From contig RQOL01000374.1 of NCBI GenBank assembly GCA_013076295.1, positions 1,488,001 through 1,552,000 of the forward strand: a stretch of DNA of 64,000 bases, written 5' to 3'. This DNA comes from Sanderia malayensis. Its lineage: Eukaryota > Cnidaria > Scyphozoa > Semaeostomeae > Pelagiidae. The notes under the pieces are model-generated. The model searched no databases and was not told the origin of the DNA. It saw only the letters and a list, made by a program, of their open reading frames with translations. Position numbers and translations under genes: made by a program. Of this stretch, positions 362 through 23,864 are shown piece after piece; the first letter of the stretch is position 1, and each line of letters starts with the position of its first letter.

Positions 362-364
362 ATG

Positions 365-627: not shown

Positions 628-628
628 G

Positions 629-2535: not shown

Positions 2536-3474
2536 AATTTCACGGGCACTGCGAATCAGTGCCTGGTTCATAGAAATAAAAGCTTCTTTGATCCCATCAA
2601 GAAATCCAGGTTAAAAGCAGGCATGGAAAAAAGAAAGAAAACACAACGAGTAATGTCACTACTCAAAGAAGATCTTCAATTTACCATATTAATCCTGGAA
2701 ATGACATCATCAATCGTAATGACCCCCATATTTTGCAACAATAAATTGAAATCTAGCACAGCAGTCCATAGATATGATGAAAAAAGCACTTTTATAGCGA
2801 AATATTTCATTTATTTCAATTCCCTGTCCTGCAATACTGCAAAAAAAGTGTTAATGATGTCATGAATTTTATCCGGGATATCTCCCAGAGGGGAATAAGG
2901 GCATATATATTGGCTCCTCGTGGTTCTCACAGTCCTCTAGCAAAAGTACACCAAGTGAGAGAAGTTGAATTGTCAAAGTTTTGGTTGCCCACACACCTCC
3001 CGCAGCGACGAGCGCCAACTCCTCCCTTCTCCTTTCAAATAGCAAAGCCTCCTTCGCACTTGCCACATCTTATCCATATTTGAAAGGAGAAGAATAGAGA
3101 ACGGTGAGGATAGAGTACTACAAAGATGTAGGGCTTCTGCCCACAGGCAGGGTTGCCACATCACTTTGGTCTGCCGAGGCCAGAGTTAGATTCGCGGGAG
3201 GCCAAATTCTTGCTCTTTGTAGCCAAATTTTCAAAAGAAAATAGCCATTGTTTTAGAACAAAAGATTAAATGTCTCAAAACAAAAGACGCATTCTTTAAA
3301 TAACAAAGAACAATATTTAAGTAAAAAATGTAATCAATTTGCAAGGCAACTTTAAAACAAGAAACAAAGGAGAAAGTGTTGATTTTTATAAATACTCGGA
3401 TAAGTTCATTTCATCTGTCTCAGTTGATGATGATTCCTGGCGCATTGTGTCTCAGTTAAAAAGTTCAAGCATTT
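2536..3474. other. non-coding stretch with a perfect hairpin
   Basis: No convincing gene. Short open frames here have no recognisable motif. It contains a perfect 16-bp inverted repeat (3026-3041 with 3077-3092, 35-nt loop). At 3149 the sequence CAGGGTTGCCACATCAC resembles hAT terminal inverted repeats and may be the 3' end of the hAT element whose transposase begins at 3475; I did not find the matching opposite end. Confidence 0.5.
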
Positions 3475-5310
3475 TTAAAGTGACTTTGAAGCCTGTGCAG
3501 CATTTCCCTCTGTTTTAAGGCTGGTTCTTATTCTTATCAATGCATCCAACATTTCCAAATACATGTGATTTCTGAGCCTTGTCTTTACGCATGTTAGTTG
3601 TGAAAACACTCTTTCACAGATGGCATTGCTAAGTGGCGTAGCAAGTGCTGTAAGAGCATAAACAGAAAGTTCTTTAAATGTCCTTTCCCCTGAAGCTGTT
3701 TCGTACTTGTACACTCCAATCCGAAATTCTAAGGCAGCAGATGGAATAACACTGCAGAACACCCCTTGCGATGCCCAATCCATGTGTAGATTTTGACGAT
3801 ATTGTTCGTCAACTGCTGCAATATCTCCATCGATATGAAGCAACGGCAAAGAAATCAATAAAGGACAACCGTTGGAGACAGGATTGTCCTTGGACTGAGA
3901 TGATGCAATCCTTTAAAAACATTTTCATTGTCTGGCAAACTCTTCTCCACTTTGTCTAAGAGCTCGACCAGGAAGCTTTTGCATAGTGTTGACATCTCTT
4001 TCACGTTTGCTTTAGGGATGTCACTGTACCCTTGATTAGCCAAGTATTTCTTCATTTCAATCAAATACTTCACTCCAAAGTCAATACGAGATATAGATAG
4101 AAGTGTATCTCCACCAAAGCCATAAACTCTGTCACGTAAGAACTTCTGTAGACGAAAAAGCAGTTGCACACATTCTTCAGGGTCTGTGTTTGTCGACTGA
4201 AAGAATGCATTTACCTTCTTGAATTCTGTGACGACAGGTGACGAAAAATGAAAGTATAAGTAATTGATTGGGTCTTTCAGGGTGCTTAAAATCATTTTGC
4301 CTTATATCGCATATTTGACTTGAGGTTTGGCTCCTCCAACACAAAATAGGCCTTTATTTCTTCCCAATTTACCAAAGTGTCATAGATTATTTTTCCTGGC
4401 ACTAATCAACGAGTGGTGTACATCTTCTGGAACGGCAAGGCTTAACAGCACCTTCCTCGTTTGGGTCCATCACAATCAACAACTCTTTAAATGACTCTCT
4501 CCTTGCGATACTCTTTGAAAACCATTTCGGTACTTCTTTGAGAAGGAAGCCAAGGTTTGTAGTCATGTTTTCGAAGACGTGAGGTGTGCATAATGCTAGT
4601 GAACGGCAAATGCATTTCATTTTTGTGCAGTTTGGTGACTCTGAGTGTAATCTTGACCACACAGAATTTCTTTCCCCCATCATAGTTGATGCTCCAACCC
4701 TCGCAAATCCAAAGTAATGTGCCAAAACCAGCTGAACTTCAACAAGAGCAGCTTTCATGGCCTGAAACAAGCTCTTGCCTGTTGCATCGACTGTTGCTGC
4801 CAAGATTTTTCTTGGCAGCAACATCTGTTGTCTCATCAATCAGCACTGCAAACCCTTTCCCCTTGGCATCTTCTTGAAGTTCAACTTTAATGGCTAGTGA
4901 TACGACTTTCGTCAGTAACCGGCTGCATTTCGTTCGATGGAGACAAATTTCACCGATTGTGCTACCTTTGCGGTGCTCCACCATTATCTCGCCAAGATGA
5001 TCAACAGCCATTATTGCTGAGTGGCAGGCAATTCCAACAGCAACTTGTATCTCAGCATTCTTTATTGCATCTGTTGTTCCAGGTTTCTGTCTTTTCTCAA
5101 AGATCAATGGTCAAATTTGTTGGCTCTCTCGTTGGTACTTTGCTGCTGTGTTCTTCGCTCTATTCATGTTTTGAAATTGACCATAATTTTGGCTGAAGTG
5201 TCTTCCTGCACAACTTGCAATATGCATTGCCTTTACTATCCGAAGACTGTGATAGCCAGACATACTGATTTTCCCAACTGTTCCTATATTTTCTACCCGA
5301 ACTGTAACTG
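3475..5310 (-). pseudogene. hAT-superfamily transposase (decayed)
   Basis: Pieces of one minus-strand protein lie in order across three or four frames. Near 5190-5300 is a BED-like zinc finger (YCKLCRKTL..., then H and H). At about 4840-4870 is FAVLIDETTDVAAKK, containing the conserved Asp of hAT nucleases. Near 4290-3860 is the helical insertion region (FFQSTNTDPEECVQLLFRLQ), and at 3480-3700 the C-terminal dimerisation region (LSNAICERVFSQLTCVKTRLRNHM). Such enzymes cut and paste elements bounded by CAGGG-type ends. At least one in-frame stop follows the zinc finger and several frameshifts separate the blocks. Confidence is high for the superfamily and low for activity. Confidence 0.87.
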
Positions 5311-5377
5311 CCCGTCAAAGTAATAAATGTCCAATTTTGGTTCCGTTAGGATCTACTCTTAAATTTATTGTTCTCAC

Positions 5378-5700
5378 ATGTTTGAATGTTTAGAACATGG
5401 AGTCTCCAAAAAGGCTTCTGGTGGTGGTTTTGAGGTAACTGAGAATCTTCCAAGGAATTTTCGGCCATTGGCAAGAGTTGTTGATGTCCACACTGGAACG
5501 GATGGAATGGTTTGTTCGGCACGTTTAGAGACCAAAGATTCAGAGATGGTAAGGCCAATACACAAACTGTGCCTGCTTGAGGCTGCTGAGACATATTTAA
5601 AGTAGAGAAATTATAATAAACAGTTTCCTGAAGAACCTGTATGGGGGTGGGGATGTTATGCGCATAACAGATATTTGTGTTGTTTTTTGTCTTTTATGCT
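5378..5700 (+). pseudogene. BEL/Pao pol C-terminus and LTR start
   Basis: The plus-strand frame ending at 5605 carries NFRPLARVVDVHTGTDGMV and RLETKDSEMVRPIHKLCLLE, the conserved tail after the integrase of BEL/Pao retrotransposons. About 50 bp downstream a G-rich polypurine tract (5642-5652) precedes TGTTATGCGCATAACA (5654-5669), a perfect 16-bp palindrome starting with TG as an LTR would. The rest of pol is missing upstream. A second BEL fragment just downstream (5828-6490) lies on the opposite strand, so the locus is rearranged. Confidence 0.72.
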
Positions 5701-5827
5701 TTGTTTACTGTGTTTTTTATAGTTTCTCTAGGGCACATTCCGTGAAGTAATCAAGCATGTTTTTTTTTGTTTTTGTTTCATGATGATTGAATTTCAGCAG
5801 AGTCGCTTATTGCCATGTTGCATCCCG

Positions 5828-6490
5828 TTAACCAGGTGCAGAACGTGCCATCTGGATTGCAATCAAGAGTACAATCAAGAGTACCATCAAGAGTACCATC
5901 AAGAGTTTTGATCCATCCACACTACCAGGCAACAATCTCGGTGATGCAGCCAACCCAGCCGCGGCAATCACCTCAGAGATTGAAGCAGAAGTGGAACCAA
6001 CAGTCACTGTTTCTTCGTCATGTTCGTTGATGCTCGAGGGTTGTTTATTCCATCTCGGCCAGTCTTCTTCATTTTTCCATAAAAACTCTGGTCCTTGAAA
6101 CCACCGCTTGCTGTTAATCAATTCGTCAACCATCAATCCTCGAGAAGCATCATCAGCCGGATTCTTTTTTGAAGTAACATACATCCATTGCCTGGCAACA
6201 GATCCTTCATGTATGACTGTCAGCATATTCGCAACAAACACCTGAAACCACTTTCTTCATTGTTGATATACTTTAATACAGATGTCAGTTAATACTATCA
6301 GTCCAAAAGGTTGAATCTTATAATACAATTTCCAACTCTCGTCTTAACATTTCATCCATCTGAACGGCTAATGCAGCTGCTGTTAACTCTAGCCTCGGTA
6401 TCGTCACTCGATTCAATGGGGCTAATCTTGACTTGGCCAACAGGAATGTGCAGTGAATAATTTCACGCTTGTTCTTGATTTGCGTGCATC
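5828..6490 (-). pseudogene. BEL/Pao RNase H-region fragment
   Basis: The minus strand reads SRLAPLNRVTIPRLELTAAALA near 6430, then WTDS-type residues, then MLTVIHEGSVARQWMYVTSK and KNPADDASRGL at about 6130-6240. These mark the RNase H and connection region of BEL/Pao pol, which degrades RNA in RNA-DNA hybrids during reverse transcription. The frame runs left into a short 12-bp tandem repeat ('gtaccatcaaga' type) at 5865-5910, where similarity ends. An internal stop sits in the LELTAAALA...DEMLRRELEIVL segment. Orientation is opposite to the BEL fragment at 5378-5700. Confidence 0.82.
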
Positions 6491-8300
6491 AGCGAAAGCA
6501 AATATTAAAACGCACCGTGTGCAGTGATCCACTAGATAATCAGACAATGGGACTAGCCAATAGGACGCGTTGGAGATTTAGAGACTTAAAATAGCAGTGC
6601 AAGCAATGACTATTATGCTCAGTGATTGTTACCTGTCCAATGAACTGAACAGATTTCTATTGTAGAGATTCTTTCTATATGCAGGCTTGAAATATCAACG
6701 TAAATTATCCACTAATTGTTAACTGTCCAATGAAGTGTGATGATATATAGGCCTGAGGCTTTTATGAGGCAAAGTTTAGTTTCAGATAAAATTTCCGACA
6801 GCTATGGTGCAAAATAACAGATAGGTAAGTCATAGGATGGTCATAGGCCGTCACTCTGCACAGCTCAGCTCCTGCCTGAAGATATGGAAAAGCGGAAGTC
6901 GGGATTTTATTTTTATTTACCTGTTGCTTTATCCTTATTTGAAGTCAAATTATCAAAAAAGTTTCTGTGTAAAACCTATTTTAATTTACTTGCTTTTGAA
7001 AGCTAACTACGTACTAAGGAAACCTTAATTCATTATTTAAAAAAGAAAACACGTAACAGTATTTTGGTAGCAAAGTACCAAGCCCAAAAATTTAAGAAAC
7101 TGCCTACACCAGCCCTCTTATAAATTTTTGAAAATGAAAGCCGTCAGGACAAAATTGTGAAATGTGAATTTGCAATTTGTGTGCTTTGCTGATGGAAAGT
7201 CATATTTAAATGAAGTACAAAATTGTATTTCTGTAAATAAAATTTCATTGATTCATCACAGCTACCATGCTGATCTCCCAATCTGTGACCCTGAGTGAGT
7301 CCATTTTCAGTCACAGCCTGCAAATAAGCGTCGCATTGGCATGACACAGCAATATTGACAAACAGCATCGTTGTCGTTGGAAGTGTAGCTTCAAGATATG
7401 ACAAGCTATTGTTATTTATCCAATGGAAACACACATTCTGTCCACACAATGAAGACACACAGGCTGGAAATCAATGGAGCGCAGTGGCATCTCTCAGCGT
7501 ACTAGAAGAAACTGTAAAAGCAGTGCTCACTTGCAGAAACGCCTTTTTCCACAAAAAATTACCAGAGTCAGGTAAGAATATAATATTCTGAAAGCGACAT
7601 TCCGAGCATTCGTGATTCCCAAAGCTTTTCTTTGATTATTTTTTTTCTGTAAGTAGAATAGTAGCATTGACATTCTATTTACATCAACCCTAGCTATCTA
7701 TTTACATCAACCAACGTTTTGTTGGGATAAATTCGTCAGAATGAGCTGCTCGAAGTAGGGGTTGGGTTGTGGGTAAATGTTATTAATCATCGAGCAGCTA
7801 GCTATTTTGGTTTCTGTCTTCATTTTATCATAAAAAAGCATCAGCGTAAATCTTACAAGGGTTTCGAAAAAAATAGCCAGTTTTGAAGAAATTGTTTACC
7901 ATACCATATCCATGCGCCTACGCTACACCAAAATTGAACCGCCTCTTTGCGTTTTTTTCCATTTAGGCTAGGCCCAGGCCTAGCTAGGGACTGTTAACAA
8001 AGTTTGATGTTAACGCTGGGGTTGGGGTTGATATGGGGCCATTTGTTTGTGCAAAATGAGCGCTTTATTCTTTTAGATCTTTAGATAAAGCATGAGTTAT
8101 ATGATTTACAGCTTAATTATTTGCAGCTTTCGTTGTCATATTCAGTTGCTTTGCAGTCTTCCCGAGAAAAATGTTACAGACTAACATTGACAGAAATTTT
8201 GCTACAGACTAGCATTATTGACTAAAATTGTGTTTGATTCAAAACAAAAGAAAACATCAAATGAAATGAAATAGATTACATCAATTTGTTTAGAGCTGAT
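6491..8300. other. intergenic, no recognisable gene
   Basis: About 1.8 kb with only short frames that show no family motifs. Visible structure is limited to a short direct repeat ('ctatttacatcaacc', about 7676 and 7698) and a 10-bp inverted repeat AGCTGCTCGA / TCGAGCAGCT around 7744-7800. The Helentron-like element must begin somewhere near its right edge, but I cannot place its terminus. Confidence 0.5.
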
Positions 8301-8305
8301 ATAGC

Positions 8306-10646
8306 ATGGACGTTAAAAATTGTAATCAATTTATTTTGCCAAATGTTTATGGATACAATTTTACAAAAATAGATTACATAAGGATCTTTTCACCAGGGCA
8401 ATGCAAAATTTGGGGAAACTGCTGGAAAACAGTGTGTGTGCAATGCATTAATATCATTAATCTGGTCCAAGGTAAAAAGTATAGACCACTGGGATAGTAT
8501 TGATCTTGATAAAACTTTAAATGAAGGAGACAACTTGTACAAGCACTTGAATATTGATAGATTTCTCTCTGTAGATGATATACCATATGCTGTGAATATC
8601 AATGGTTCCACTTCAAATATCATTTTTCTCTCAAATAGAAGTGGCCTGTTGAGTTATTCTGATAGAATTGATCTTTCACTCCCTTTTGGTGAGAGACTTG
8701 GCACTGGCAGGCTTTCTTTATAAAACAATATTGCCTTTCTGTGTTTGTCACAAAAAGAAACTTTTATTTATTTGACTCTCACAGCAAGAATAGCAGGGGT
8801 GAAATTGTAGACAATGCATTCTCCATGCTTATGAAATTTTGTTGTGTTAATGACATGGAAAGTTACATTCATGAGGTTTATGTTGCAGATCTACTTGAAA
8901 CAGTTGCATTTGAAGCTCAATGCATTGATATTGAAATGAATGAAGAAAATAGATTGTCAATTTCCTATACTATTTTCAGAAACAAAAGGCAAAGTTGGGG
9001 AAAAGATCTGCTAGCAGTAATACTGACATCAACCCTGTTTCTGCAAAAATCAGAATAAAAACAAACAAAATTCAGTTAATTCCATGAAACATGAAAAACA
9101 GTGTAGCAGGTACACTAATCCAATAAGAACTATGTTGCAATGTTCAAAAATGCAATTCAGCAGGGTCCATTTTGCATATGTGTTGTTTGTCATAGATGCT
9201 TGTATCAAAGAAGTGTGGTTGCTTTTCATATGGAAAAGTATAGCCAATCTAATCTGCTATCACCATATTTAGTCAAGAGTTTTAATGGTTTAGAATATAT
9301 CTGTATAACTTGTGACAAAAATTAAAGAAAAATAACCCTCCGTGCCAGTCTGTTTGCAACAATTTGCAACTTTCTGTAATACCTGATGAAATAAAATGCC
9401 TGAAACATCTTGAAACAATCTTAATATCTGAAAGATTGCTGTTCAAAAAGGTTGTTATATTGCCTAAAGGTCAATCACCAAAAATGAAAGGGAGTATTTG
9501 CAACATCCCTGTTGATGCAGATGAAGTCTGTAATATTTTGCCAAGGGAAATAAACAGTAATTATTTAGTATTAGTAAAATTAAAGCGGTAAAATGATTTA
9601 TAATGGTCATGTGTACTTTGAGCCAGTGCGACCACAGTTTGTAAACTGTGCACTTGAATTCTTAAAGTCAAACAACTGGCTTTATGACAAAATAGAAATT
9701 GATACACAAGGAATACCAACAGAATTGATTAACCTCTCTGTGTGTGAAGAAGATGAGGTAGAGAATACTGAACTTCCAACAGATCCACATTCTGTGTTGG
9801 AAGAAGAGGATCTAATGGATGAAGGCAGAGTGAACTGTGGTCATACCATGCTAATCAGCAATATTCCATCTCATTTTTACAATGATGAAATTATGACCAT
9901 GGCCCCTGGAGAAGGAAGATACCTCTATCCATTCCTCTTGACAAACATTGTGAAGAACTAGCTTTTCCTTACCTTTTCCCAACTGGGAAGTTTGGATACA
10001 ATGTAGATCGAACTGTAAAACTTACTCCTGTTAAGTACTTTAATCAAAGACTTTTGAATTACACAAACAATTCTCATTTGACCCAGATTACATATTTTTG
10101 CTTCTTCGGTTTTGCAGCAATTGAACGTGACCAACAGCATAAACATTGCATTGAAAAAGGTGCACTCTGCAGGAATTACTGCAGGAATGCTCAATGCAAA
10201 TTACAACGATGTTGTTAAAAATTTTATTGCACATGATAAAGGATTTTCTTTTATGAAATCCATCAAAGGTACTCCTGCTTATTGGAAAAACTTTCTTTTT
10301 GATGTAATGGCAATGGTAAAGCAGTTAGGGTTACCAACTTTTTTTGTGACACTTTCTTGTGCAGATCTCAGATGGAATGAACTTGTGTCTATCATTACAA
10401 AGTTGAAAGGTAAAAACCTTACACAGGAAGACATTGATTCACTTTCCTACTTTGAAAGGTGCAGTATATTGAATAGTAATTCAGTGCTCTTGGCTAGGCA
10501 TTTTCATACAGGGTTGAATTGTTTTTTAAACATATTGTGTTAGCCAAAAATGGGCCTTTAATAATGTTGAGCAATATTCAATTCGTGTGAATTTCAAGTA
10601 GAGGGAGCCCACATATACACGCTTTTCTTTGGGTACTAATGCACCT
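8306..10646 (+). pseudogene. Helentron-like protein, 5' half (peptidase-like region and Rep N-terminus)
   Basis: Broken blocks of one large protein lie in order. At 8470-8980 is a papain-fold-like domain recognisable from FYLFDSHSKNSRGEI and WDSIDLDKTLNEGDNLYKHLN, resembling the cysteine-peptidase-like N-terminus of animal Helitrons. At 9140-9320 and 9364-9960 is a zinc-binding region (CVVCHRCLYQRSVVAF, VYFEPVRPQFV). At 9960-10560 is the start of the Helitron Rep domain (CEELAFPYLFPTGKFGYN, GTPAYWKNFLFDV, FFVTLSCADLRW, ARHFHTGLN). The HUH motif follows at about 10597 as SPHIY, with Tyr in place of the second His. The composite element at 10648 splits the gene right after it; the gene resumes at 20205. 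Rep would nick DNA for rolling-circle transposition. Several frameshifts are present. Confidence 0.85.
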
Positions 10647-10647
10647 A

Positions 10648-10934
10648 CAATCCTGGCCAAAAATGCTGGAACGCTGCTAATATTTTTCATTCCGTTCTGC
10701 AAAATTTTCTCCCTCCCCCGATACATGTTGATCTTTGTTCACTGTGTCTATTTTTCAGCGGTAATCGCTATTCACGAGTATGCTACATGCCTTACAACCA
10801 ACAACCAACATTGTTTTTTGGGGGGAGGGGAGGGAGAAGTACTGACAAGCATTTGTTGTTTGTGCTCTAAGAGGCCGCGTATTGTTTTCAGTTAGCAATA
10901 TTTTCAACCGTTCCAAGTCTTTTTGGCAGGATTG
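10648..10934. repeat. ~290-bp terminal repeat, copy 1
   Basis: Starts CAATCC and ends GGATTG with about 27-bp imperfect inverted ends. It holds a C-rich tract (cctcccccg) and a G-rich tract (ggggggaggggaggg) as subterminal inverted repeats. The left flank is TA and the right flank is TC. It is slightly shorter (287 bp) than copies 2 and 3 through several one-base deletions. Confidence 0.88.
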
Positions 10935-11428
10935 TCTCTTACTACTGAATTGAAAATTTTTGTTTTTACTTGCAGCTACATAAGTTATATCACTAAATAA
11001 CAAGCGTGGATTACATTTCTTGATAATAGATGTATTATGAATGATCATATTTAAAAATGACATCATTTTTCACCACACCCTGCTTTTGACGGTCATTTCC
11101 CTGTGCATGGCAAAGCCCAACACTGCATGTTTTGCTTGCATGAAATTGTGCAGTAATATGATGGATAATGGAGTTTATAAGTTTAGTAATTATCATTTTC
11201 ATGAAATATATTCCCACTGTCTGACAGTGGGCTTAAGCAGGAAGTTGCATGTGCGGGAGAATAGACACAAAGTAATGACGACAGTATGCGGCAAGAGATA
11301 GTTGATGCCGTTCCAGCACTCAATGCACTGTAAATATCCACACGTTGCTAACTGAGTTGACTTTACTGGCAGGGATAATAATTTCTTTAGTTTCGATGCC
11401 TCTGTAACACGAGTGGACGTATAGATAA
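10935..11428 (+). promoter_or_regulatory. upstream region of rep copy 1 with a perfect hairpin
   Basis: About 490 bp between the terminal repeat and the rep start codon. It has no gene. A 19-nt palindrome, CCCACTGTC-T-GACAGTGGG, lies at 11213-11231, roughly 200 bp before the ATG, and is damaged by indels in the second unit (about 15836-15855). It probably contains the rep promoter and might hold a Rep binding site; that role is inference. Confidence 0.45.
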
Positions 11429-12739
11429 ATGGCTTGCAATAATAATGATGAAATTATGAGTGACGAGGAAGATTTCGAGTCAGAACAGTTAGCTGTCAAA
11501 ATGAAAAGACAGGCGTACTTAGTAACTTGGAGCAGAGCAAATACAACTGAGTACGATAAGAAAAGATTTGCAGAGGCAGTGACATCTGCATTTGCAGAAG
11601 TGACGTCATCTTTAATTAAGCATTGGTGTTGCTGTGTAGAAGAGCATCAAGATGGCACGCCACATTATCATATGGCTGTTTTATTAGACAGGCCAACACG
11701 TTGGAGCCGTGTAAGACAGCATATTCAGCAAACCCATGGTATTAGTGTAAACTTCTCTGGGCATGGCGGGTACTATAGTGCGTACAACTACGTGAAGAAG
11801 AAAGACAGGCATGTGCTTTACAGTGATTCTCACCCAGATGTAGTTGTGAAGCCAAAGACCTATGCAGCAACAAATGTGAAGGTGACCAAAAAAATGGAAA
11901 AAAAAGGAAAACGCATGGGGAAGCTAGAGGTTGCTGAACTGATTGTGAAAAACAGCATTCGCGATAGAATTCACCTTCTGCAGCATGCTAATGCACTGAG
12001 AAAAGAAGGACAACCCGCCTTGTACAAATTTTGCATTGAAAGGTCTACAAAGACCATTGTAGAATTTATTACAACTGTGTGGGATGCTGAAACAGCAGAA
12101 CAGACCTTGCAGAGACAGAACATGCTGAGAATGGAGATTCTAACCAATGCCCTCGATAAGCCCTGCATTTGTGATAGGCAATGGCTAAAGTGTGCTACCG
12201 AAGTGTTGGAGCGGAATGGCATTGATGTCGTAGATTTTTCTAAGGCAGTAAAGGATCTTCTGCAGAAAGGTAGGGGCAAAGGGCGGAACATCTTGCTTAC
12301 TGGTCCAGCAAATTGCGGGAAGACATTTTTGCTAAACCCTCTCGTAGAGGTGTTTGACGCATTTTGTAACCCAGCTGCAGGAACATTTGCATGGGTCGGG
12401 GTGGAGCAAAAAGAAGTCATATTCTTGAACGACTTCCGCTGGGAAAGAAATATAATATCTTATATTTCAGATATGCTCCTGCTACTGGAAGGACAGTTAG
12501 TTCATTTTCCTGCTCCAAAGACGCACTACTCGCAAGATATCTGCTTAATCAAAGATACCCCAGTTTTCTGCACAAGCAAAGCACCCCTGATATATTTAAA
12601 AAATGGGACAATTGATGAGCGGGAAACCGAAATGATGGATGTGAGGTGGAAACATTTTGCATTACGTCATCAACTTCAGGTGGATGAATGCAAAGAGGTT
12701 CCTTGCTGTGCAAATTGCTTTGCGATGCTCATTGCATAA
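11429..12739 (+). CDS. Rep protein: HUH endonuclease + superfamily 3 helicase (copy 1, intact)
   Basis: A 436-residue open frame. An acidic N-terminus precedes an HUH endonuclease domain: motif I YLVTWSRAN (30-38), HUH motif HYHM (79-82) after DGTP, and the tyrosine motif YNYVKK (119-124). The C-terminal half is a superfamily 3 helicase with Walker A GPANCGKT (292-299), Walker B EVIFLNDFRW (329-338) and motif C VFCTSKAP (379-386). In motif C the usual Asn after TS is Lys. A Cys pair (CCANC) closes the protein. This architecture is that of replication initiators of CRESS-DNA viruses and parvoviruses: nicking at an origin, covalent attachment through Tyr, and unwinding. It ends 758 bp before the 3' end of a convergent transposase gene. 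No capsid gene accompanies it, which favours a transposon gene over an integrated virus. Confidence 0.9.
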   Translation: MACNNNDEIMSDEEDFESEQLAVKMKRQAYLVTWSRANTTEYDKKRFAEAVTSAFAEVTSSLIKHWCCCVEEHQDGTPHYHMAVLLDRPTRWSRVRQHIQQTHGISVNFSGHGGYYSAYNYVKKKDRHVLYSDSHPDVVVKPKTYAATNVKVTKKMEKKGKRMGKLEVAELIVKNSIRDRIHLLQHANALRKEGQPALYKFCIERSTKTIVEFITTVWDAETAEQTLQRQNMLRMEILTNALDKPCICDRQWLKCATEVLERNGIDVVDFSKAVKDLLQKGRGKGRNILLTGPANCGKTFLLNPLVEVFDAFCNPAAGTFAWVGVEQKEVIFLNDFRWERNIISYISDMLLLLEGQLVHFPAPKTHYSQDICLIKDTPVFCTSKAPLIYLKNGTIDERETEMMDVRWKHFALRHQLQVDECKEVPCCANCFAMLIA

Positions 12740-13497
12740 TATGTCAACAATGTGTTGTGGTCGAAGCTTTGTTCACGCTATCCACGGTGGCCACCGTGAA
12801 ACATTTTTAGTAATTTTGTGTTTGATATAATTTTCAATATATATACTCACATATTTAGATATAGCATAACATTTTCAATCGTTATAAATCACATGTGTTG
12901 TCTATTTTTTGTCTGCTCGCATTAAAACTTCACTTATGAGGGTTTTTTGTACGGTTGCCAGTAAATAATAAAGAATAGAAACGAAGATATCAAATTTCAT
13001 TTAGAAATGACTGGCCACCGTATACGTTTTGCATGAATAATGGGAGATAATTGAAAAATACTTTTTAAAGACATGCCATAAAAACAACAGATGCATAAAG
13101 ATGAGAATCTTACCTCAAAATTAATATATTGCTTAATTGTACTGCTAAATATCCGCTTTGTAAATGGCCGCCGTCGTGGTAACCGTGGATATCGTTGTTT
13201 CTCTTATTTGTCATGTCATAGGAAATTTCTAGAAATGAGAAATTAGGCCTTCATGAGCACCACATTGCTTTTTGCTAATGGTTTATACACAATTGTCAGT
13301 ATGTAAACATAAACTCCGATGAGATTTCAAATCCAAGCAGTTCATGAAATACCGTGCAATAATGCGCAGAGAGCATAGCAGAATACACTTGACGAAGAGA
13401 AATACAATTAGGTTAAAAATGTCACATCGCAAAATATCAACTTGAAACGACAAAATGAGAGATAAAATAATAAATAGACAAAAGCTCTAGTATATTT
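12740..13497. other. gap between convergent rep and transposase, bounded by inverted repeats
   Basis: No gene. Just after rep stops, CACGGTGGCCACCGTG (12783-12798) is a perfect 16-bp palindrome. The stretch 12779-12794 recurs inverted at 13176-13191 with two mismatches, so about 410 bp are bracketed by inverted repeats. The same arrangement exists in unit 2 (17400-17812). Possible roles are transcription termination, a protein-binding site or an old MITE; the sequence does not decide. Confidence 0.5.
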
Positions 13498-14603
13498 TCA
13501 GTATTTTGTTCTGTCACCCTTAGTAGCAACAATTAACTTCATACGCTGAGGCATGTTATCTATTGTTCTCTGTATAACGTCTTTGTCAAAGTTCCATAGT
13601 GTATCCAACACTCTTCTTGAAAACTCCTCATATGATTCTCTTGTTAATTTCTTAGCCAATGCTTGGTTCTGTAATGCACGCTTAACATTATGAAAAACGT
13701 TTTCAATTGGATTGAGGTCTGGTGACCTTGCTGGTATCCTCAATAACGTTGCACCGATATCGTGTAATGCATCCATGGCAAGCTTACTAGTCTGACATGG
13801 CTCATTGTCCATGACGAAGAACTTTGCCATTCTGCTTTTTCTGCACTGAACACGTGCTCCAATAAATGCACGCGGAAGCTTGCTTCTAACAAAGTCTGCA
13901 AAGAACTGTCCAGTCATTTTTTCATATGGTTCCACCATAATCACGCCTGAATTGTATGATACAGCGACAAGAACATGAAATCTTCTGCCACCGGCGAGAT
14001 TCTTTGAGCCACTTGTTGTGTATCTCAGACCTTCACTTCGCTTTCTGTAAATGCGTCCTTTTGGTTTTGAGGCTTCTTGAAATGGGTTATATTTGTGTAT
14101 AAATGATACGCCATCTAAGTAGAACGCCACTTCTTTTGTCCAGAAACTATCCTCGTGTTGCTTTAATGCTTGCCTAGCGAACCTTTTGCGGCTGACTTTA
14201 TCTTTGACAGACAACAAGCCCTTCTTTCTTGGCTGCAACTTACGATACCCGGCATCATTAAGTATACGGACATATGTTCTGTAGCTGCCATCCGTAACAC
14301 CAGCTTCATTCATTATTTCCTTTACTGTTGGATTTCGACCATCAGCACGCAATGCATGAAATGTTCGTAAAAAGTACGAGACTTGTCGCTCTGACAAAAT
14401 TCTTGGCCGTCCACGCTTCTTTTTCTCATTTCCTTGCTTCTTTGTTTTTGAGTAGAATCTATTCCTTCGGTATAGCATCGATAAACAGATGAATGTGAAA
14501 TTTTCAGAATCCTTGATACTTCTCGAAAGCTTTTACCTTGTTGGGCAACCATTAAATAGGCTAGAGCTCGTGTTTTGGAACATATCTTCTTCTTAAAGGC
14601 CAT
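13498..14603 (-). pseudogene. DD34E Tc1/mariner-type transposase (copy 1, one frameshift)
   Basis: The longest frame (14478 to 13498) gives 326 residues; the true N-terminus starts at 14603 with MAFKKKICSKTRALAYLMVA in another frame. The break is a one-base difference near 14450, where unit 2 is in frame. Order: N-terminal helix-turn-helix, GRPR AT-hook-like motif, second helix-turn-helix (PTVKEIMNEAGVTDGSYRTY), then the DDE core. Counting from 14478, catalytic residues are D122 (FYLDGVSF), D224 (FVMDNEPC) and E259 (SPDLNPIEN), with exactly 34 residues between the last two: the Tc1-type DD34E signature. It would excise and insert the element at TA, as the flanking TA shows. It is convergent with rep. 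The pseudogene label depends on one indel and may be a sequencing artefact. Confidence 0.88.
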
Positions 14604-15267
14604 TACGAAATTAGAAGTGCGTCTCTCACTGGATCTTAATATCTACTAAACCTGTGCTGTGACCCGACATTTAACAGTTATTGTAGCTGTAAACAACTAG
14701 ATTCGGCACTACATCACTGATATTGTTCTTGCTATTGTTTGTCGTTCTCTAGTGACCTCGGACTGGACAATAGATAATTTTCACGCTATTTCTATAGCTT
14801 TTGAAGCATCTCAGGGGTTTTAAACTAAAAATAGCAAAAGACGATTCAATGGATTGCTTATTACAGATGAAATTTTGAGTTTGCCACAGCTGACACTTTC
14901 TATTCTCTAGAAAAATGAGCTACTAGCGACAGCCTCGATTTCATGTTATTTTACACATTCAACTTTTCACTCATAAACATAAAGTATAGCACAGCAGGCA
15001 ATTGAAAGGCGTCCGTAAACATAAATAATCACAATTTATGAGAGCCCAGAGATGCTAAGAACATTAAAACATAATCATTATGAGAAAGTAGGGTAAAAAT
15101 GACCAAAACCCATAAAAATAGACCGTTTTGGCTCCAAATGACGTCATTTTCATTAAAGATACAGGTGAAATTGCAAAAATAATTTTATATTCGTGATTCA
15201 CAGGTCTAACTTCGTGAGGTTTTCAAAAAAATTACAGGCTTCAGCACGATTTGTATTCAAAGCGTGT
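14604..15267. other. upstream region of transposase copy 1
   Basis: About 660 bp between the transposase start (minus strand) and the second terminal repeat. It is AT-rich and holds no gene. It should contain the transposase promoter. Near the right edge 'gcgtgt' abuts repeat copy 2 directly, whereas in unit 2 four extra bases (caga) precede repeat copy 3. The matching region of unit 2 is 19244-19910. Confidence 0.45.
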
Positions 15268-15559
15268 CAATCCTGGCCAAAAATGCTGGAACGCTACTAA
15301 TATTTTCATTCCGTTCTGCAAAATTTTCTCCCCTCCCCCGATACAATGTTGATCTTTGTTCACTGTGTCTATTTTTCAGCGGGTAATCGCTATTCACGAG
15401 TATGCTACATGCCTTACAACCAACAACCAACATTGTTTTTTGGGGGGAGGGGAGGGAGAAGTACCTGACAAGCATTTGTTGTTTGTGCTCTAAGAGGCCG
15501 CGTATTGTGTTTCAGTTAGCAATATTTTCAACCGTTCCAAGTCTTTTTGGCAAGGATTG
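15268..15559. repeat. ~290-bp terminal repeat, copy 2 (shared middle)
   Basis: Same CAATCC...GGATTG unit as copies 1 and 3, 292 bp. Neither side is flanked by TA (gt on the left, tc on the right), so it is not an independent TA-targeted insertion. It is shared between the two tandem units. Confidence 0.88.
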
Positions 15560-16051
15560 TCTCTTACTACTGAATTGAAAATTTTTGTTTTTACTTGCAG
15601 CTACATAAGTTATATCACTAAATAACAAGCGTGGATTACATTCTTGATAATAGATGTATTATGAATGATCATATTTAAAAATGACATCATTTTTGACCAC
15701 ACCCTGCTTTTGACGGTCATTTCCCTGTGCATGGCAAAGCCCAACACTGCATGTTTTGCTTGCATGAAATGTGCAGTAATATGATGGATAATGGAGTTTA
15801 TAATTTAGTATTATCATTTTTCATGAAATATATTCCACTGTCTGACAAGTGGGCTTAAGCAGGAAGTTGCATGTGCGGGAGAATAGACACAAAGTAATGA
15901 CGACAGTATGCGGCAAGAGATAGTTGATGCCGTTCCAGCACTCAAATGCACTGTAAATATCCAACGTTGCTAACTGAGTTGACTTTACTGGCAGGGATAA
16001 TAATTTCTTTAGTTTCGATGCCTCTGTAACACGAGTGGACGTATAGATAAA

Positions 16052-17361
16052 ATGGCTTGCAATAATAATGATGAAATTATGAGTGACGAGGAAGATTTCG
16101 AGTCAGAACAGTTAGCTGTCAAAATGAAAAGACAGGCGTACTTAGTAACTTGGAGCAGAGCAAATACAACTGAGTACGATAAGAAAAGATTTGCAGAGGC
16201 AGTGACATCTGCATTTGCAGAAGTGACGTCATCTTTAATTAAGCATTGGTGTTGCTGTGTAGAAGAGCATCAAGATGGCACGCCACATTATCATATGGCT
16301 GTTTTATTAGACAGGCCAACACGTTGGAGCCGTGTAAGACAGCATATTCAGCAAACCCATGGTATTGTGTAAACTTCTCTGGGCATGGCGGGTACTATAG
16401 TGCGTACAACTACGTGAAGAGAAAGACAGGCATGTGCTTTACAGTGATTCTCACCCAGATGTAGTTGTGAAGCCAAAGACCTATGCAGCAACAAATGTGA
16501 AGGTGACCAAAAAAATGGAAAAAAAAAGGAAAACGCATGGGGAAGCTAGAGGTTGCTGAACTGATTGTGAAAAACAGCATTCGCGATAGAATTCACCTTC
16601 TGCAGCATGCTAATGCACTGAGAAAAGAAGGACAACCCGCCTTGTACAAATTTTGCATTGAAAGGTCTACGAAGACCATTGTAGAATTTATTACAACTGT
16701 GTGGGATGCTGAAACAGCAGAACAGACCTTGCAGAGACAGAACATGCTGAGAATGGAGATTCTAACCAATGCCCTCGATAAGCCCTGCATTTGTGATAGG
16801 CAATGGCTAAAGTGTGCTACCGAAGTGTTGGAGCGGAATGGCATTGATGTCGTAGATTTTTCTAAGGCAGTAAAGGATCTTCTGCAGAAAGGTAGGGGCA
16901 AAGGGCGGAACATCTTGCTTACTGGTCCAGCAAATTGCGGGAAGACATTTTTGCTAAACCCTCTCGTAGAGGTGTTTGACGCATTTTGTAACCCAGCTGC
17001 AGGAACATTTGCATGGGTCGGGGTGGAGCAAAAAGAAGTCATATTCTTGAACGACTTCCGCTGGGAAAGAAATATAATATCTTATATTTCAGATATGCTC
17101 CTGCTACTGGAAGGACAGTTAGTTCATTTTCCTGCTCCAAAGGCGCACTACTCGCAAGATATCTGCTTAATCAAAGATACCCCAGTTTTCTGCACAAGCA
17201 AAGCACCCCTGATATATTTAAAAAATGGGACAATTGATGAGCGGGAAACCGAAATGATGGATGTGAGGTGGAAACATTTTGCATTACGTCATCAACTTCA
17301 GGTGGATGAATGCAAAGAGGTTCCTTGCTGTGCAAATTGCTTTGCGATGCTCATCGCATAA
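16052..17361 (+). pseudogene. Rep protein copy 2 (three frame-breaking indels)
   Basis: A near-identical copy of the Rep gene at 11429. Relative to copy 1 it has a one-base deletion at about 16366 (after the HUH domain), another at about 16420 beside the tyrosine motif, and one extra A in the A-run at about 16520. These split it into an N-terminal frame (16052-16372, with HYHM) and a long C-terminal frame (16537-17361) that keeps Walker A, Walker B and the CCANC tail intact. One substitution in the helicase part (THYSQ to AHYSQ) also differs. All three breaks are single-base indels in an otherwise almost identical sequence, which suggests very recent decay or assembly error. The upstream region (15560-16051) matches 10935-11428. 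Confidence 0.87.
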
Positions 17362-18122
17362 TACGTCAACAATGTGTTGTGGTCGAAGCTTTTTTCACGC
17401 TATCCACGGTGGCCACCGTGAAACATTTTTAGTAATTTTGTGTTTGATATAATTTTCAATATATATACTCACATATTTAGATATAGCATAACATTTTCAA
17501 TCGTTATAAATCACATGTGTTGTCTATTTTTTGTCTGCTCGCATTAAAACTTCACTTATGAGGGTTTTTTGTACGGTTGCCAGTAAATAATAAAGAATAG
17601 AAACGAAGATATCAAATTTCATTTAGAAATGACTGGCCACCGTATACGTTTTGCATGAATAACGGGAAATAATTGACAAATACTTTTTAAAGACATGCCA
17701 TAAAAACAACAGATGCATAAAGATGAGAATCTTACCTCAAAATAACTAATATATTGCTTAATTGTACTGCTAAATATCCGCTTTGTAAATGGCCGCCGTC
17801 GTGGTAACCGTGGATATCGTTGTTTCTCTTATTTGTCATGTCATAGGAAATTTCTATAAATGAGAAATTAGGCCTTCATGAGCACCACATTGCTTTTTGC
17901 TAATGGTTTATACACAATTGTCAGTATGTAAACATAAACTCCGATGAGATTTCAAATCCAAGCAGTTCATGAAATACCGTGCAATAATGCGCAGAGAGCA
18001 TAGCAGAATACACTTGACGAAGAGAAATACAATTAGGTTAAAAATGTCACATCGCAAAATATAAACTTGAAACGACAAAATGAGAGATAAAATAATAAAT
18101 AGACAAAAGCTCTAGTATATTT

Positions 18123-19243
18123 TCAGTATTTTGTTCTGTCACCCTTAGTAGCAACAATTAACTTCATACGCTGAGGCATGTTATCTATTGTTCTCTGTAT
18201 AACGTCTTTGTCAAAGTTCCATAGTGTATCCAACACTCTTCTTGAAAACTCCTCATATGATTCTCTTGTTAATTTCTTAGCCAATGCTTGGTTCTGTAAT
18301 GCACGCTTAACATTATGAAAAACGTTTTCAATTGGATTGAGGTCTGGTGATCTTGCTGGTATCCTCAATAACGTTGCACCGATATCGTGTAATGCATCCA
18401 TGGCAAGTTTACTTGTCTGACATGGCTCATTGTCCATGACGAAGAACTTTGCCATTCTGCTTTTTCTGCACTGAACACGTGCTGCAATAAATGCACGCGG
18501 AAGCTTGCTTCTAACAAAGTCTGCAAAGAACTGTCCAGTCATTTTTTCATATGGTTCCACCATAATCACGCCTGAATTGTATGATACAGCGACAAGAACA
18601 TGAAATCTTCTGCCACCGGCGAGATTCTTTGAGCACTTGTTGTGTATCTCAGACCTTCACTTCGCTTTCTGTAAATGCGTCCTTTTGGTTTTGAGGCTTC
18701 TTGAAATGGGTTATATTTGTGTATAAATGATACGCCATCTAAGTAGAACGCCACTTCTTTTGTCCAGAAACTATCCTCGTGTTGCTTTAATGCTTGCCTA
18801 GCGAACCTTTTGCGGCTGACTTTATCTTTGACAGACAACAAGCCCTTCTTTCTTGGCTGCAACTTACGATACCCGGCATCATTAAGTATACGGACATATG
18901 TTCTGTAGCTGCCATCCGTAACACCAGCTTCATTCATTATTTCCTTTACTGTTGGATTTTGACCATCAGTACGCAATGCATGAAATGTTCGTAAAAAGTA
19001 CGAGACTTGTCGCTCTGACAAAATTATGACTGTTCTAATTCTTGGCCGTCCACGCTTCTTTTTCTCATTTCCTTGCTTCTTTGTTCTTTGAGTAGAATCT
19101 ATTCCTTCGCTATAGCATCGATAAACAGATGAATGTGAAATTTTCAGAATCCTTGATACTTCTCGAAAGCTTTTACCTTGTTGGGCAACCATTAAATAGG
19201 CTAGAGCTCGTGTTTTGGAACATATCTTCTTCTTAAAGGCCAT
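18123..19243 (-). pseudogene. DD34E Tc1/mariner-type transposase copy 2 (one frameshift)
   Basis: Second copy of the transposase. Here the N-terminus is in frame with the DNA-binding region (19243 to 18566: MAFKKKICSKTRALAYLMVA, AT-hook, both helix-turn-helix regions, first catalytic Asp in FYLDGVSF). The break is a one-base deletion near 18633, after which the remaining core continues (18569 to 18123), with the second Asp in FVMDNEPC and Glu in SPDLNPIEN. It has a 12-bp in-frame insertion after GRPRI relative to copy 1 (residues RTVI). The frame breaks in the two copies are at different places, so each copy is open where the other is broken. The gap 17362-18122 matches the convergent gap of unit 1. 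Confidence 0.87.
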
Positions 19244-19910
19244 TACGAAATTAGAAGTGCGTCTCTCACTGGATCTTAATATCTACTAAACCTGTGCTGT
19301 GACCCGACATTTAACAGTTATTGTAGCTGTAAACAACTAGATTCGGTACTACGTCACTGATATTGTTCTTGCTATTGTTTGTCGTTCTCTAGTGACCTCG
19401 GACTGGACAATAGATAATTTTCACGCTATTTCTATAGCTTTTGAAGCATCTCAGGGGTTTTAAACTAAAATAGCAAAAGACGATTCAATGGATTGCTTAT
19501 TACAGATGAAATTTTGAGTTTGCCACAGCTGACACTTTCTATTCTCTAGAAAAATGAACTACTAGCGACAGCCTCGATTTCATGTTATTTTACACATTCA
19601 ACTTTTCACTCATAAACATAAAGTATAGCACAGCAGGCAATTGAAAGGCGTCCGTAAACATAAATAATCACAATTTATGAGAGCCCAGAGATGCTAAGAA
19701 CATTAAAACATAATCATTATGAGAAAGTAGGGTAAAAATGACCAAAACCCATAAAAATAGACCATTTTGACTCCAAATGACGTCATTTTCATTAAAGATA
19801 CAGGTGAAATTGCAGAAATAATTTTATATTCGTGATTCACAGGTCTAACTTCGTGAGGTTTTCAAAAAAATTACAGGCTTCAGCACGATTTGTATTCAAA
19901 GCGTGTCAGA

Positions 19911-20202
19911 CAATCCTGGCCAAAAATGCTGGAACGCTGCTAATATTTTCATTCCGTTCTGCAAAATTTTCTCCCCTCCCCCGATACAATGTTGATCTTT
20001 GTTCACTGTGTCTATTTTTCAGCGGGTAATCGCTATTCACGAGTATGCTACATGCCTTACAACCAACAACCAACATTGTTTTTTGGGGGGAGGGGAGGGA
20101 GAAGTACCTGACAAGCATTTGTTGTTTGTGCTCTAAGAGGCCGCGTATTGTGTTTCAGTTAGCAATATTTTCAACCGTTCCAAGTCTTTTTGGCAAGGAT
20201 TG
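19911..20202. repeat. ~290-bp terminal repeat, copy 3 (right end)
   Basis: Same unit as copies 1 and 2. The right end is flanked by TA (20203-20204), pairing with the TA left of copy 1; the left flank is 'ga'. AATATTTTCA(TT/A)CCGTTC-type motifs occur in the same orientation at 19942-19959 and 20164-20180. The first lies between GAACG and CGTTC, a possible short stem. Confidence 0.88.
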
Positions 20203-20204
20203 TA

Positions 20205-23200
20205 CCTTCACACACAAGAAAAAAGAGGAATACCTATTTTTTGTTGATTCAATAGTCAAAGCATCAGTTCCAGATAAAATTGTCAATCCAGAACTATACC
20301 ATCTAGTTACCTCATACCAGATTCACAAACACTCAAAATCATGCCGTAAATACAAAAATGTGGAGTGTAGGTATGGATTTGGTAAATTCTTTACTGATAG
20401 AACAATAATTGCAGTGCCTATACCAAAAGACACACCTGAGGAGATACGATGCAATATTCTAAAGGAAAGAAACACCTTACTTGAAAAAGTCAAATCATAC
20501 ATTGATGCTAATCTGATCCCCTCAAATGTTAGTTTTGATTTCACATCAGGGCCTACTGCCAATATCTTATCACAAATGGGGATTGAGGAAGAGAATTACT
20601 ACCATCAACTGTCCATCTCATGTGATGACGATTTTCATATTCATCTTAGGCACCCACCAAATTCATGTTTTGTGAATAATTATTTTGAAGTTGGGTTAAG
20701 CGCATGGGAAGCAAACATTGACATCCAGCCTGTTTTTAACCATTATAAAGCAGTGTCTTACATGTGCGCATATTTCTCAGTAATCAGAGGATCAGACATC
20801 ACTTCTCATGAAACAAGCATCTCAGGAAGCTATGACACAAGGGTTTGACAAAAAAGAACAAATGAAGGAAATTTCCTTCATTTGTTCTTTTTTGTTCTTC
20901 ATTCGTTCTTTTTTCTTCATTTGTTCTTTTTCACTAGTTGTATATGCTCTTGCAATTGCAAGAGCATATACAACTAGTAGGGAATGTTCTGTTCAAGAAG
21001 CTATTTATCATTCATTACCAGAACTCTGGCTCCGTAAATGTTCCCCTGCTGTGTTATTTGCAAAGAGCAATTTGCCAGAACATCGTTAAAAAGTTTTCCT
21101 TTCTTAAGAGGAGTTAAATGATTTGCCAGAGGATAGTACAAATATTTTCAAAAGATCAATGATAAACCGCTATACAGATCGTCCAAATACATCATTTAAA
21201 AATGGAAAATACAAAGTGGTAGATACTCTTTGTTTTGCAGAATTTGTGGCATTCTATTATGTTGATTACTACTCCGTATCCTCAACTCTTACCTCTCATG
21301 GGGACCAAAGAAAAAATGAAATGCAGAAAAATACGATGTGTTTTAAGATACCACACTCCAAGCCAAGAAAAATACCCAGAGAGGTATGCCCATCATCTCC
21401 TGTTCATGTTTTACCCTTTTCGCAATGAAACAGATTTAGTCAGCTCAGAAGATGGAACTTATTATTCAAAATTAAGGGAATCTAATGTTCTTCGTATAAT
21501 TCATCAAAATAAGTTGAAATTTGAACCGTTTGGTGAGCTGGTTGATTTAGCTATGGAACGCTTTCTTTCTTTTAGACAAAATAGTAATGAACAACAGGAA
21601 GAGGAAATTGCTGAAATGATGACAGATCAGAACACAGAACTGCAAGAAAATTCATCTGCTGCCTTGGGAAGTTACAATTTAAACGCTGCTCCTTTCGTTT
21701 CTGAAGATGAGCTAACTTCCATGATACAATCTCTGAACAAAAAGCAGATGGAAATTTTTCTGACCGTAAATAAATGGGGAAGAGATTATTTAAAAAGCAT
21801 GTCATGTGTAATTAACAATGATGTACCTCCCTTACATTTGTTTATAACCGGTAATGGTGGGTGTGGTAAGTCATATTTGGTCAAAGTTATATACCAGTCT
21901 CTACGAAAATTATTTTGTTATAATGCAGGTGACTTGGATAAGGAGAGAATTTTGCTGTTATCACCAACAGGAATTGCTGCAATAAATATTGGTGGAACGA
22001 CAATTCATTCTGCATTTAGCATCCCAATTGGCAATTATTCAAAGAACATACCAAAAGTAAATGATCAGATAAGATCTGTATTAAGAAATAGATACTCTGA
22101 AGTGTCTGCCGTCATAATTGATGAAATCTCTATGGTTTCAAATATACTTTTACTGCATGTCCATCAACGTCTTGTAGAAATATTAGGATACAGTAATAAT
22201 GACAATATACCGTTTGCAGGAAAAACAGTCATTACAGTTGGAGATTTTTTTCAGTTACCTCCTGTAAATGGCAGGAAAGTGTACTCCCTTTATAAAAATG
22301 ACTGGCAAAATATAGCACATCCATGGAGACTCTTCAGGATTTGTAATCTTACGGAAGTAATGTGACAGAAAGACAACAATTTCTTCATTACTTTGTTAAA
22401 TAACGTGAGAATTGGCAAGTTAGATGATAATGACGTCCACATGTTGAAGTCAAGGTTTATTAGTGAGGACCAGTCACATTATCCTTGTGATGCATTGCAT
22501 ATCTTTGCAGAGAATGAACCTGCAAACTGTCATAATGCAAAAATGCTAAAGAGAATCAATACTGCATTGTACAATATTGAAGCAATTGACAAAATTCCTG
22601 ATGATATTGCACTACACGAAGCACAAGAAGCTTGCAACAGAAGACCAAGTCAAACAGGCGGGCTTCCAAAACTGCTTTCGTTAAAATTAGGTGCTAGGGT
22701 TATGCTAACAAATAATATTGATATAAGTGACAGATTAATTAATGGTCAAGTTGGAACAGTTGGTCACATAAAATTGGATTCACAATTAAAAGTAAAACTT
22801 ATATATGTCAAGTTTGATGATAGAAATGCTGGCTGAAAACAAATGACAATGGATGCATTTGGAAATGAAATTCTTTTGTTGCAATTGAGCGAAAAGATAC
22901 CAGCATCAAATTAAAACCTAGCAAACATTCGTCACCAACGATAACAAGATTTCAATTCCCACTAATGTTAGCCTGGGGGAGTACAATTCACAAAGTACAA
23001 GGGTTAACCCTCAGTAACGCAGTTGTTAGTTTTAATCTTTTCCGACAAAGAATGTTCAATTACGGACAAATGTATGTAGCTTTAAGCAGAGTCACGGGAA
23101 TTACTGGATTGCATTTGCTTGGGAACTTTGACTCAACAGCAATAAGATGTAATCCATCAGCTGTCACAGAATATGCAAGACTTAATGCAATTGCTGAAAT

Positions 23201-23864
23201 TAAATCATTGAATCATTGCAATTTTCAAAGCGAGTTATGCTTCACAATTTGTTTTCTTAATTGCAGATCACTAAGAAAAAATGTAGCAAAGATGAAAAAT
23301 ATTGAATCATTGTCTAAATCTGACATTATTCTTTTCACAGAAACACAGTTAAAACCCGACAGTGAAGTTACAAGTATAGTAAACACTCTCGCACAATTTG
23401 AGCTAATATTCGACAATGATGAAGATCAGTATAGTAGTTTAGCATCATGTTTAGGTACAGCAGTAGTAAATCTTGATTACGAGCATTTCAGAAGTGGTTT
23501 TACTTACCTAAAAATTAAGAAAAGATCATTTTCGTTTCCTGTTTCTATTCTGCTTCTGTACAGAAAAAGAAGTCAGCCATTGAATCAGTTTCTAGAATGT
23601 TTACAGTATTTTACACACAGTAGACAAGTTGATATAGTTTTAGGGGATTTCAATATGAATGGGTTAACTGATAACCCTGCAGCAGCATTGTTACAAAATA
23701 ATTATATATCAATGTTAAAAAGTGCTACTCACTTATCAGGTGCCATGTTAAATCATGTGTATATAAGACGATCATTGATAACTTATTATTACATTGACAC
23801 AGAAGTCATTTCAATATATTTTAGTGATCATGGTGCAGTGAAGATTTCCTTTAAAACAAATTAA
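20205..23864 (+). pseudogene. Helentron-like protein, 3' half (Rep C-terminus, PIF1 helicase, EEP endonuclease)
   Basis: Resumes the protein interrupted at 10646. First comes the Rep C-terminal part: KKKEEYLFFVDSIV, a Cys-rich segment SKSCRKYKNVECRYGFGKFF, and the paired-tyrosine motif SYMCAYFS near 20760. Then ECSVQEAIYH and KSYLVKVIYQ lead into a PIF1-type superfamily 1 helicase: Walker A GNGGCGKS (about 21850), VIIDEISMV (about 22110), VGDFFQLPPV, NGQVGTVGHI, STIHKVQG (about 22985) and YVALSRV. A C-terminal endonuclease/exonuclease/phosphatase domain ends the protein: FLNCRSL, LFTETQL, VLGDFN, SDHGAV. Rep + PIF1 + EEP is the Helentron architecture; the EEP domain resembles that of LINEs. 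About five frameshifts or stops break it, and an 84-bp foldback insertion lies at 20872-20955. Confidence 0.92.
20848..20978. repeat. two adjacent perfect palindromes (foldback insertion)
   Basis: Positions 20848-20895 form a perfect 48-bp palindrome and 20933-20978 a perfect 46-bp palindrome, separated by 37 bp of degenerate 'ttcttcattYgttcttt' repeats. Both are centred on AATT. Removing 20872-20955 (84 bp) joins the left arm of the first to the right arm of the second and restores the expected Helentron reading KEQMKEIARAYTTSREC. The insert is therefore made of inverted copies of its own flanks, and it keeps the frame open. Confidence 0.93.

Follow-up and report, generated by a model that had tools for sequence, protein, structure and literature searches.

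A Tc1/mariner-type family with hairpin-prone direct repeats and a Rep of predicted parvovirus-like fold in Sanderia malayensis

Why would a gene for a replication protein (Rep) of viral type lie beside a gene for a Tc1/mariner transposase in an animal genome? The question is raised by 64,000 nucleotides of the scyphozoan Sanderia malayensis (assembly GCA_013076295.1, contig RQOL01000374.1, positions 1,488,001 to 1,552,000). This whole stretch is called the window here, and coordinates refer to it unless another contig or locus is named. A first-pass annotation had seen in it a mobile element bearing both genes. We too infer a hybrid life cycle, in which Rep would amplify the element, the transposase would integrate it and no capsid would take part. 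More specifically, we hold with moderate confidence that the element represents a Tc1/mariner-type family bordered by hairpin-prone direct repeats of about 254-292 bp and encoding a DD34E transposase and a Rep predicted to fold like that of parvoviruses and adeno-associated virus (AAV); the transposase likely moves repeat-bounded DNA to TA, and Rep likely copies an extrachromosomal form. The sequence itself establishes that the two genes are paired, that five lineages have direct repeats with inverted ends and an inner stem, that the TA-flanked forms include solo repeats, single units and arrays, and that short scars mark the places of missing repeats.

The pairing is real and not the outcome of a chance insertion. 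A search of the genome gave at least 120 Rep and at least 124 transposase matches, which were merged into 89 Rep and 121 transposase loci. A transposase lies within 3 kb of Rep at 72 of the 89 Rep loci (65 convergent, 3 on the same strand and 4 divergent), and a Rep lies within 3 kb at 74 of the 121 transposase loci, the chance expectation for a transposase near a random locus being about 0.45%. Chance neighborhood was thus rejected. Five divergent lineages, A to E, with Reps 41-52% identical, have in common terminal direct repeats about 254-292 bp long, an inner stem and mostly TA-flanked insertions. The annotation had proposed that its pairing be judged by whether the two genes keep company within the same borders elsewhere, and on both counts the pairing survived.

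Over 12 pairs, the Rep and transposase distance matrices are correlated (Mantel r 0.47, with 3 of 10,000 permutations as high); when the two weakest pairs are dropped, r is 0.455, with 40 of 10,000 permutations as high. Five of the pairs are from this genome and seven are foreign, the latter matched only by equal size of the longest contig; an eighth foreign pair, P0005/P0146, was left out before the tree. In both trees C, D and E fall together, and B groups with three foreign pairs. As to the sizes, eight coincidences were found between the 119 Rep and 119 transposase matches with a size listed. The five below 5 kb do not clearly exceed chance (shifted offsets gave a mean of 1.37 and up to 5), and the three above 5 kb (6,982, 1,663,187 and 2,671,645) do, none being found at 100 shifts. 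These three suggest, for contigs themselves unseen, that Rep and transposase share contigs in other assemblies too. Rep has 536 relatives at E 1e-3, and the transposase gave 627 hits; among the best 120 of each, the named ones are Amphiura filiformis and Acropora millepora for Rep and Dendronephthya gigantea for the transposase.

How is the element built? It had been described as lying between CAATCC and GGATTG ends, and CAATCC does stand at 10648 and GGATTG does finish at 20202, with TA outside both. The two motifs, however, delimit not one simple transposon but a direct repeat (DR) of 287-292 bp, of which the window has three copies. These terminal direct repeats had been overlooked, and the window holds a two-unit array: TA, DR1, rep, transposase, DR2, rep, transposase, DR3, TA, that is, two head-to-tail units with the middle repeat common to both. 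The motif alone is no evidence (36 CAATCC matches in the window against 32.9 expected); the repeat copies are. The parts are as follows.

10112..10647, plus strand: host site, coding sequence of a Helitron N-terminal domain (Helitron_like_N), split by the array
10646..10647, no strand: TA at the left edge (target duplication); an empty Helitron paralogue has a single 2-bp CA at that point
10648..10934, no strand: DR1, left terminal direct repeat, 287 bp, inverted ends CAATCC/GGATTG
11429..12739, plus strand: intact rep of unit 1, coding for 436 aa, HUH endonuclease and superfamily 3 (SF3) helicase
13498..14603, minus strand: transposase of unit 1, Tc1/mariner DD34E, frame interrupted, overlapping open reading frames (ORFs) 13498-14478 and 14322-14603
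15268..15559, no strand: DR2, common to units 1 and 2, directly preceded by GTGT, without CAGA
16052..17361, plus strand: rep of unit 2, broken into two ORFs, 16052-16372 and 16537-17361
18123..19243, minus strand: transposase of unit 2, broken, ORFs 18123-18569 and 18566-19243
19911..20202, no strand: DR3, right terminal repeat, 292 bp, folding z -3.64
19971..20003, no strand: left arm of the DR3 inner stem (C-rich run and CAATGTTG)
20065..20097, no strand: right arm of the DR3 inner stem (CAACATTG and G-rich run)
20203..20204, no strand: TA at the right edge (target duplication)
20205..22365, plus strand: host Helitron, continued, with a Pif1 helicase ORF at 21235-22365

The Helitron paralogue, on contig C679, serves as the empty site: the joined flanks of the window align to it over their full 181 bases (94%) without the insert and with the single CA at the junction, and hence the entire two-unit array sits in one insertion site. 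Across 286 aligned bases DR1 and DR3 are free of substitutions, with 7 gap positions; units 1 and 2 differ at 24 of 4323 positions. Single-base events make up 16 of the 19 indels between the units (10648-20202), and the indels cluster in the first 1.5 kb; they may reflect assembly error rather than decay. Uninterrupted copies of both genes are present elsewhere in the genome. Contig C774 (23 kb) has an array of the same shape with host flanks as in the window; it is a haplotig or a duplicated segment, a probable duplicate of the window site.

An intact or nearly intact Rep had been claimed for each unit. This is true of unit 1, whose 436-aa ORF has the motifs HYHM, YNYVKK and GPANCGKT, but unit 2 has only a broken gene in two ORFs. 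The HUH histidines, the tyrosine and the Walker A lysine are invariant across 27 divergent Reps. Searches of the PDB by the Rep sequence alone produced no significant match (best E 0.35 and 0.16), for which reason a fold model was used. The predicted fold is closest to AAV2 Rep68 (bound to AAVS1) and parvovirus NS1, and the modeled HUH domain also matches geminivirus Rep; in the prediction, therefore, Rep has the HUH and SF3 Rep/NS1 fold of the Parvoviridae. Pfam Parvo_NS1 scores above its cut-off in lineages D and E, falls just under it in A and is unlisted for B and C. PHROGs gave no match. The helicase being of SF3 type, the element departs from Helitrons, with their Pif1-type fusion and no target duplication. 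In one lineage E copy (L089, 2524-4144), rep contains an 813-bp tandem duplication, 99.8% identical.

The transposase bears a DDE_3 domain (E 4.5e-16) that places it in Tc1/mariner. Its catalytic residues D162, D264 and E299 are invariant in 12 aligned proteins, with 34 residues from the last D to E. The convergent D-D-34-E transposase of the annotation is thus upheld as to domain, spacing and direction, with the proviso that the frame is interrupted in both window units. Apart from Rep and the transposase, the window units have no ORF above 149 aa; small ORFs were left unscanned and no capsid profile search was made. An LTR retrotransposon would have a reverse transcriptase and an integrase between its direct repeats; here the ORFs above 149 aa in that place are those of Rep and the DDE_3 transposase only.

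The target is that of Tc1/mariner as well. In lineage A, with the flanks of 41 of its 42 repeats examined, the host-side dinucleotide is TA at 21 of 22 left ends and 15 of 19 right ends (36 of 41 in all). In lineages B-E it is TA at 21 of 24 readable host-side ends; one more left end in lineage E is ambiguous, and loci L093 and L104 yielded no repeat. The borders, in contrast to a single pair of terminal inverted repeats around a transposase only, consist of at least two direct repeats each with both ends, and Rep is enclosed too.

What kind of repeat is this? Its inverted ends are imperfect and continue inwards, and there is an inner pair of arms, C-rich then CAATGTTG on one side and CAACATTG then G-rich on the other. 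Repeats of 255-292 bp in lineages A-D follow this one plan and are predicted to fold better than all of 200 shuffles (z -3.64, -7.89, -8.51 and -3.42, respectively). The terminal repeats of lineage E (L089), 254-255 bp long and 96.5% identical to each other, have the same CAATGTTG and CAACATTG arms. Where the Parvoviridae use terminal hairpins for replication, the repeats here are predicted to fold. In all five lineages the unit opens with TCT after the left repeat and closes with AGA before the right one, the inter-unit repeats of lineage A being the exception. Lineage B has, besides the repeat of terminal type, additional tandem repeats of about 356 bp between the 5′-ends of rep and the transposase gene (L061, 1-426 and 4782-5850; C754).

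The repeat is found in several settings. Lineage A includes six solo repeats (four with TA at both sides), single units, two-unit arrays and one four-unit array; at C170 two repeats lie without an intervening unit, with TA at either outer side. Two-unit arrays bounded by TA at both outer sides occur in A (the window), B (C859) and C (C303:3.449-3.457 Mb).

Elsewhere the repeat is missing and a scar stands in its place. Lineage A joints without the inter-unit repeat read GTGTCAGA-TG-TCTCTT (three), the same with G in place of TG (two), CAGA straight to CTCTT (one) and GTGT-AG-TCTCTT (one), and at L015 CAGA-TG-TA replaces a terminal repeat. In lineage C such joints read AAAGA-TCTGC (two) and AAAGA-CA-TCTGC (one), with one deletion, against five examined inter-unit joints with the repeat intact. 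The scars are mostly 0-2 bp, TG being the last two bases of the repeat and CA the first two. Excision by Tc1/mariner enzymes such as Sleeping Beauty and Mos1 leaves a footprint of end bases, a short scar of two as here, and TG and CA are what is expected where a Tc1-type enzyme excises the repeat alone. In the four-unit array, on contig C829, the three scars are all unlike, although the units differ by 0-1 of about 1760 bases, and thus each repeat departed separately. Of all the sequence evidence, the scars argue most strongly that the repeat is itself a transposon.

In the reading we favor, each repeat would be a complete minimal transposon, having a left end, a right end and probably the putative origin of Rep, and could therefore have its left end paired by the transposase with any downstream right end. 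Joined to the right end of the same repeat, it would move as a solo repeat; with the next one, as a single unit; with a farther one, as an array. Rep would start replication at the predicted repeat hairpin, giving circles or concatemers, and arrays would come from such concatemers or from recombination between repeats. Some arrays, the four-unit C829 and the two-unit C492, are homogeneous. Two small contigs were examined in part, C754 at 1-9000 and 19700-23254 and C36 at both ends; these parts, contig ends included, are inside arrays, as a concatemer would give, but a chromosomal array that breaks the assembly looks the same.

Several observations weigh against this reading. Unit 1 of the window is a mosaic: its first 2 kb or so is near unit 2 (4 substitutions), and the remainder has no substitutions against C456 over about 2.6 kb, whereas unit 2 differs from C456 along its whole length. 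Two arrays on C781 mix lineages (12 and 16 differences). The split between GTGT and GTGTCAGA before lineage A repeats, described below, is predicted by neither a plain circle nor plain recombination. Within 3 kb, 17 of the 89 Rep loci and 47 of the 121 transposase loci are partnerless. One of the seven foreign pairs, x4631, which may be a false pair, is placed differently in the two trees. Host-side ends without TA number 5 of 41 in lineage A and 3 of 24 in B-E (both ends of L064, and L096); L064 has CA at either side, and a 2-bp duplication is therefore still possible there. Neither a circular nor a single-stranded form was seen, nor any concatemer apart from those in the assembly, and tblastn of IMG/VR viral contigs with Rep, as a single sequence and as an alignment, found no relative, although records near the genome of the window may be absent there. 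To judge from the window mosaic, recombination was involved there, or else repair from a different copy; crossover with another copy, integration of a circle, or gap repair after excision could each yield it. That the window array arose from a single circle by plain rolling-circle copying was considered and is not supported, the units not being copies of one circle.

In lineage A, GTGT directly precedes five repeats, all inter-unit (clearly so in four; the fifth is damaged on its right side), and GTGTCAGA precedes eleven repeats at right ends. Ten of these are followed by TA; the other, at C781:4160118, is followed by GG and sequence like a unit start, and may hence be a decayed inter-unit case. 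A twelfth right-end repeat, on C25, follows GTGTCAAA. C403 is probably a duplicate of the C303:4.63 Mb locus. From GTGTCAGACAATCC to GTGTCAATCC, 4 bases are lost between two CA dinucleotides, and we conjecture that end-joining repair of a cut at the left end of the repeat would give such a loss. The GTGT pattern was not seen in lineage C.

Could the transposase do all the work? An ordinary cut-and-paste composite, two mobile repeats around a segment with Rep as passenger and arrays made by unequal recombination or gap repair, would account for lone repeats missing with short scars and for the recombination seen in the mosaic and mixed-lineage arrays; Sleeping Beauty, when mobilised from chromosomal concatemers, reportedly rearranges the genome (PMC1584263). 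We nonetheless regard it as unlikely: a useless passenger is expected to decay, whereas the catalytic residues of Rep are invariant in 27 divergent proteins; Rep and transposase stay together in five lineages with correlated distances; and the GTGT junction is unlike the product of a crossover between CAGA-DR-TA and TA-DR-TCT. More improbable still is that Rep carries out integration as well as replication, in the manner of AAV Rep at AAVS1, and that the transposase mobilises solo repeats only. That Rep68 bound to AAVS1 is the closest predicted fold speaks for it, but units and arrays, and not solo repeats alone, are mostly bounded by TA at the same repeat ends, a Tc1/mariner signature. An endogenous parvovirus-like sequence hit by a chance Tc1 insertion would explain why Rep by itself looks viral in its predicted fold; it is contradicted by the pairing at most Rep loci, by the shared borders of five lineages and by the want of a further ORF above 149 aa in the window units, and we give it hardly any credence. 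On the other side, the favored reading may be extended to a class of capsid-less, AAV-like episomes in animals such as corals and brittle stars, with Rep replicating from the hairpin repeat; such episomes would re-enter chromosomes as solo repeats, units or concatemers because each repeat would be a complete Tc1-type transposon. This extension we offer tentatively, as quite possible and still in doubt.

How does the family compare with known systems? The only printed precedent found for a Rep with a transposase is, as far as the available text goes, an element of Tuber melanosporum with a geminivirus-like Rep, two broken transposase ORFs, and 37-bp terminal inverted repeats, for which no target duplication was obvious (Liu et al., 2011; PMC3198968). 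Both are repeated elements that join a viral-type Rep and transposase ORFs within terminal inverted repeats. By description, the only basis of comparison, the truffle element is set apart: the part of its account available has no direct repeats or arrays, whereas here there are a Rep of predicted parvovirus/AAV-like fold instead of a geminivirus-like one, one DD34E transposase, hairpin-prone direct repeats (about 254-292 bp) lost separately from the units, TA duplication, and arrays. With Sleeping Beauty and Mos1 the family shares the DDE_3 DD34E transposase and the TA target; it differs in having Rep and in its ends, each of which is an entire direct repeat with its own left end and right end. 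The AAV Rep68 replicon and the Parvoviridae resemble it in predicted Rep fold and in having, at either end, self-complementary repeats a few hundred bases long, but here the repeats are direct, have transposon-type ends and insert at TA, and, since the window units have no further ORF above 149 aa, a usual capsid gene is probably lacking. Helitrons likewise fuse an HUH endonuclease to a helicase in a eukaryotic transposon, but one of Pif1 and not SF3 type, with other ends and no TA duplication; the true Helitron is the host site. Teratorn is also a cut-and-paste transposon fused with viral genes, but a piggyBac with a herpesvirus of about 180 kb, and so with another transposase and other viral genes; endogenous geminiviruses, circoviruses and parvoviruses are thought, without confirmation, to be Rep-integrated (both from the available part of a review, PMC10175614). 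Among transposons, a survey of HUH replicons covers Helitron, IS91 and IS200/605, and its available text nowhere uses the word mariner (PMC6668415). Individual copies may be filed in Repbase as Mariner families.

If Rep does replicate the element, a cut-and-paste transposon has gained the copying engine of a virus. This would account for the multiplication of a cut-and-paste element and provide a link between transposons and replicons of parvovirus-like kind. It would also allow the old question of interconversion between single-stranded DNA viruses and transposons to be tested within one genome. Repeats serving both as mobile units and as hairpins would be a new design of transposon ends.

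Past the array, the host Helitron contains two perfect head-to-head palindromes without spacer (20848-20895 and 20933-20978, with arms of 24 and 23 nt), possibly assembly artefacts or nested hairpins. Farther along the window, the minus strand has a weak reverse transcriptase match at 53455-54309 (RVT_1, E 0.00037, below its cut-off) and a HECT-domain ORF at 38108-39070 (PF00632, E 1.9e-17).

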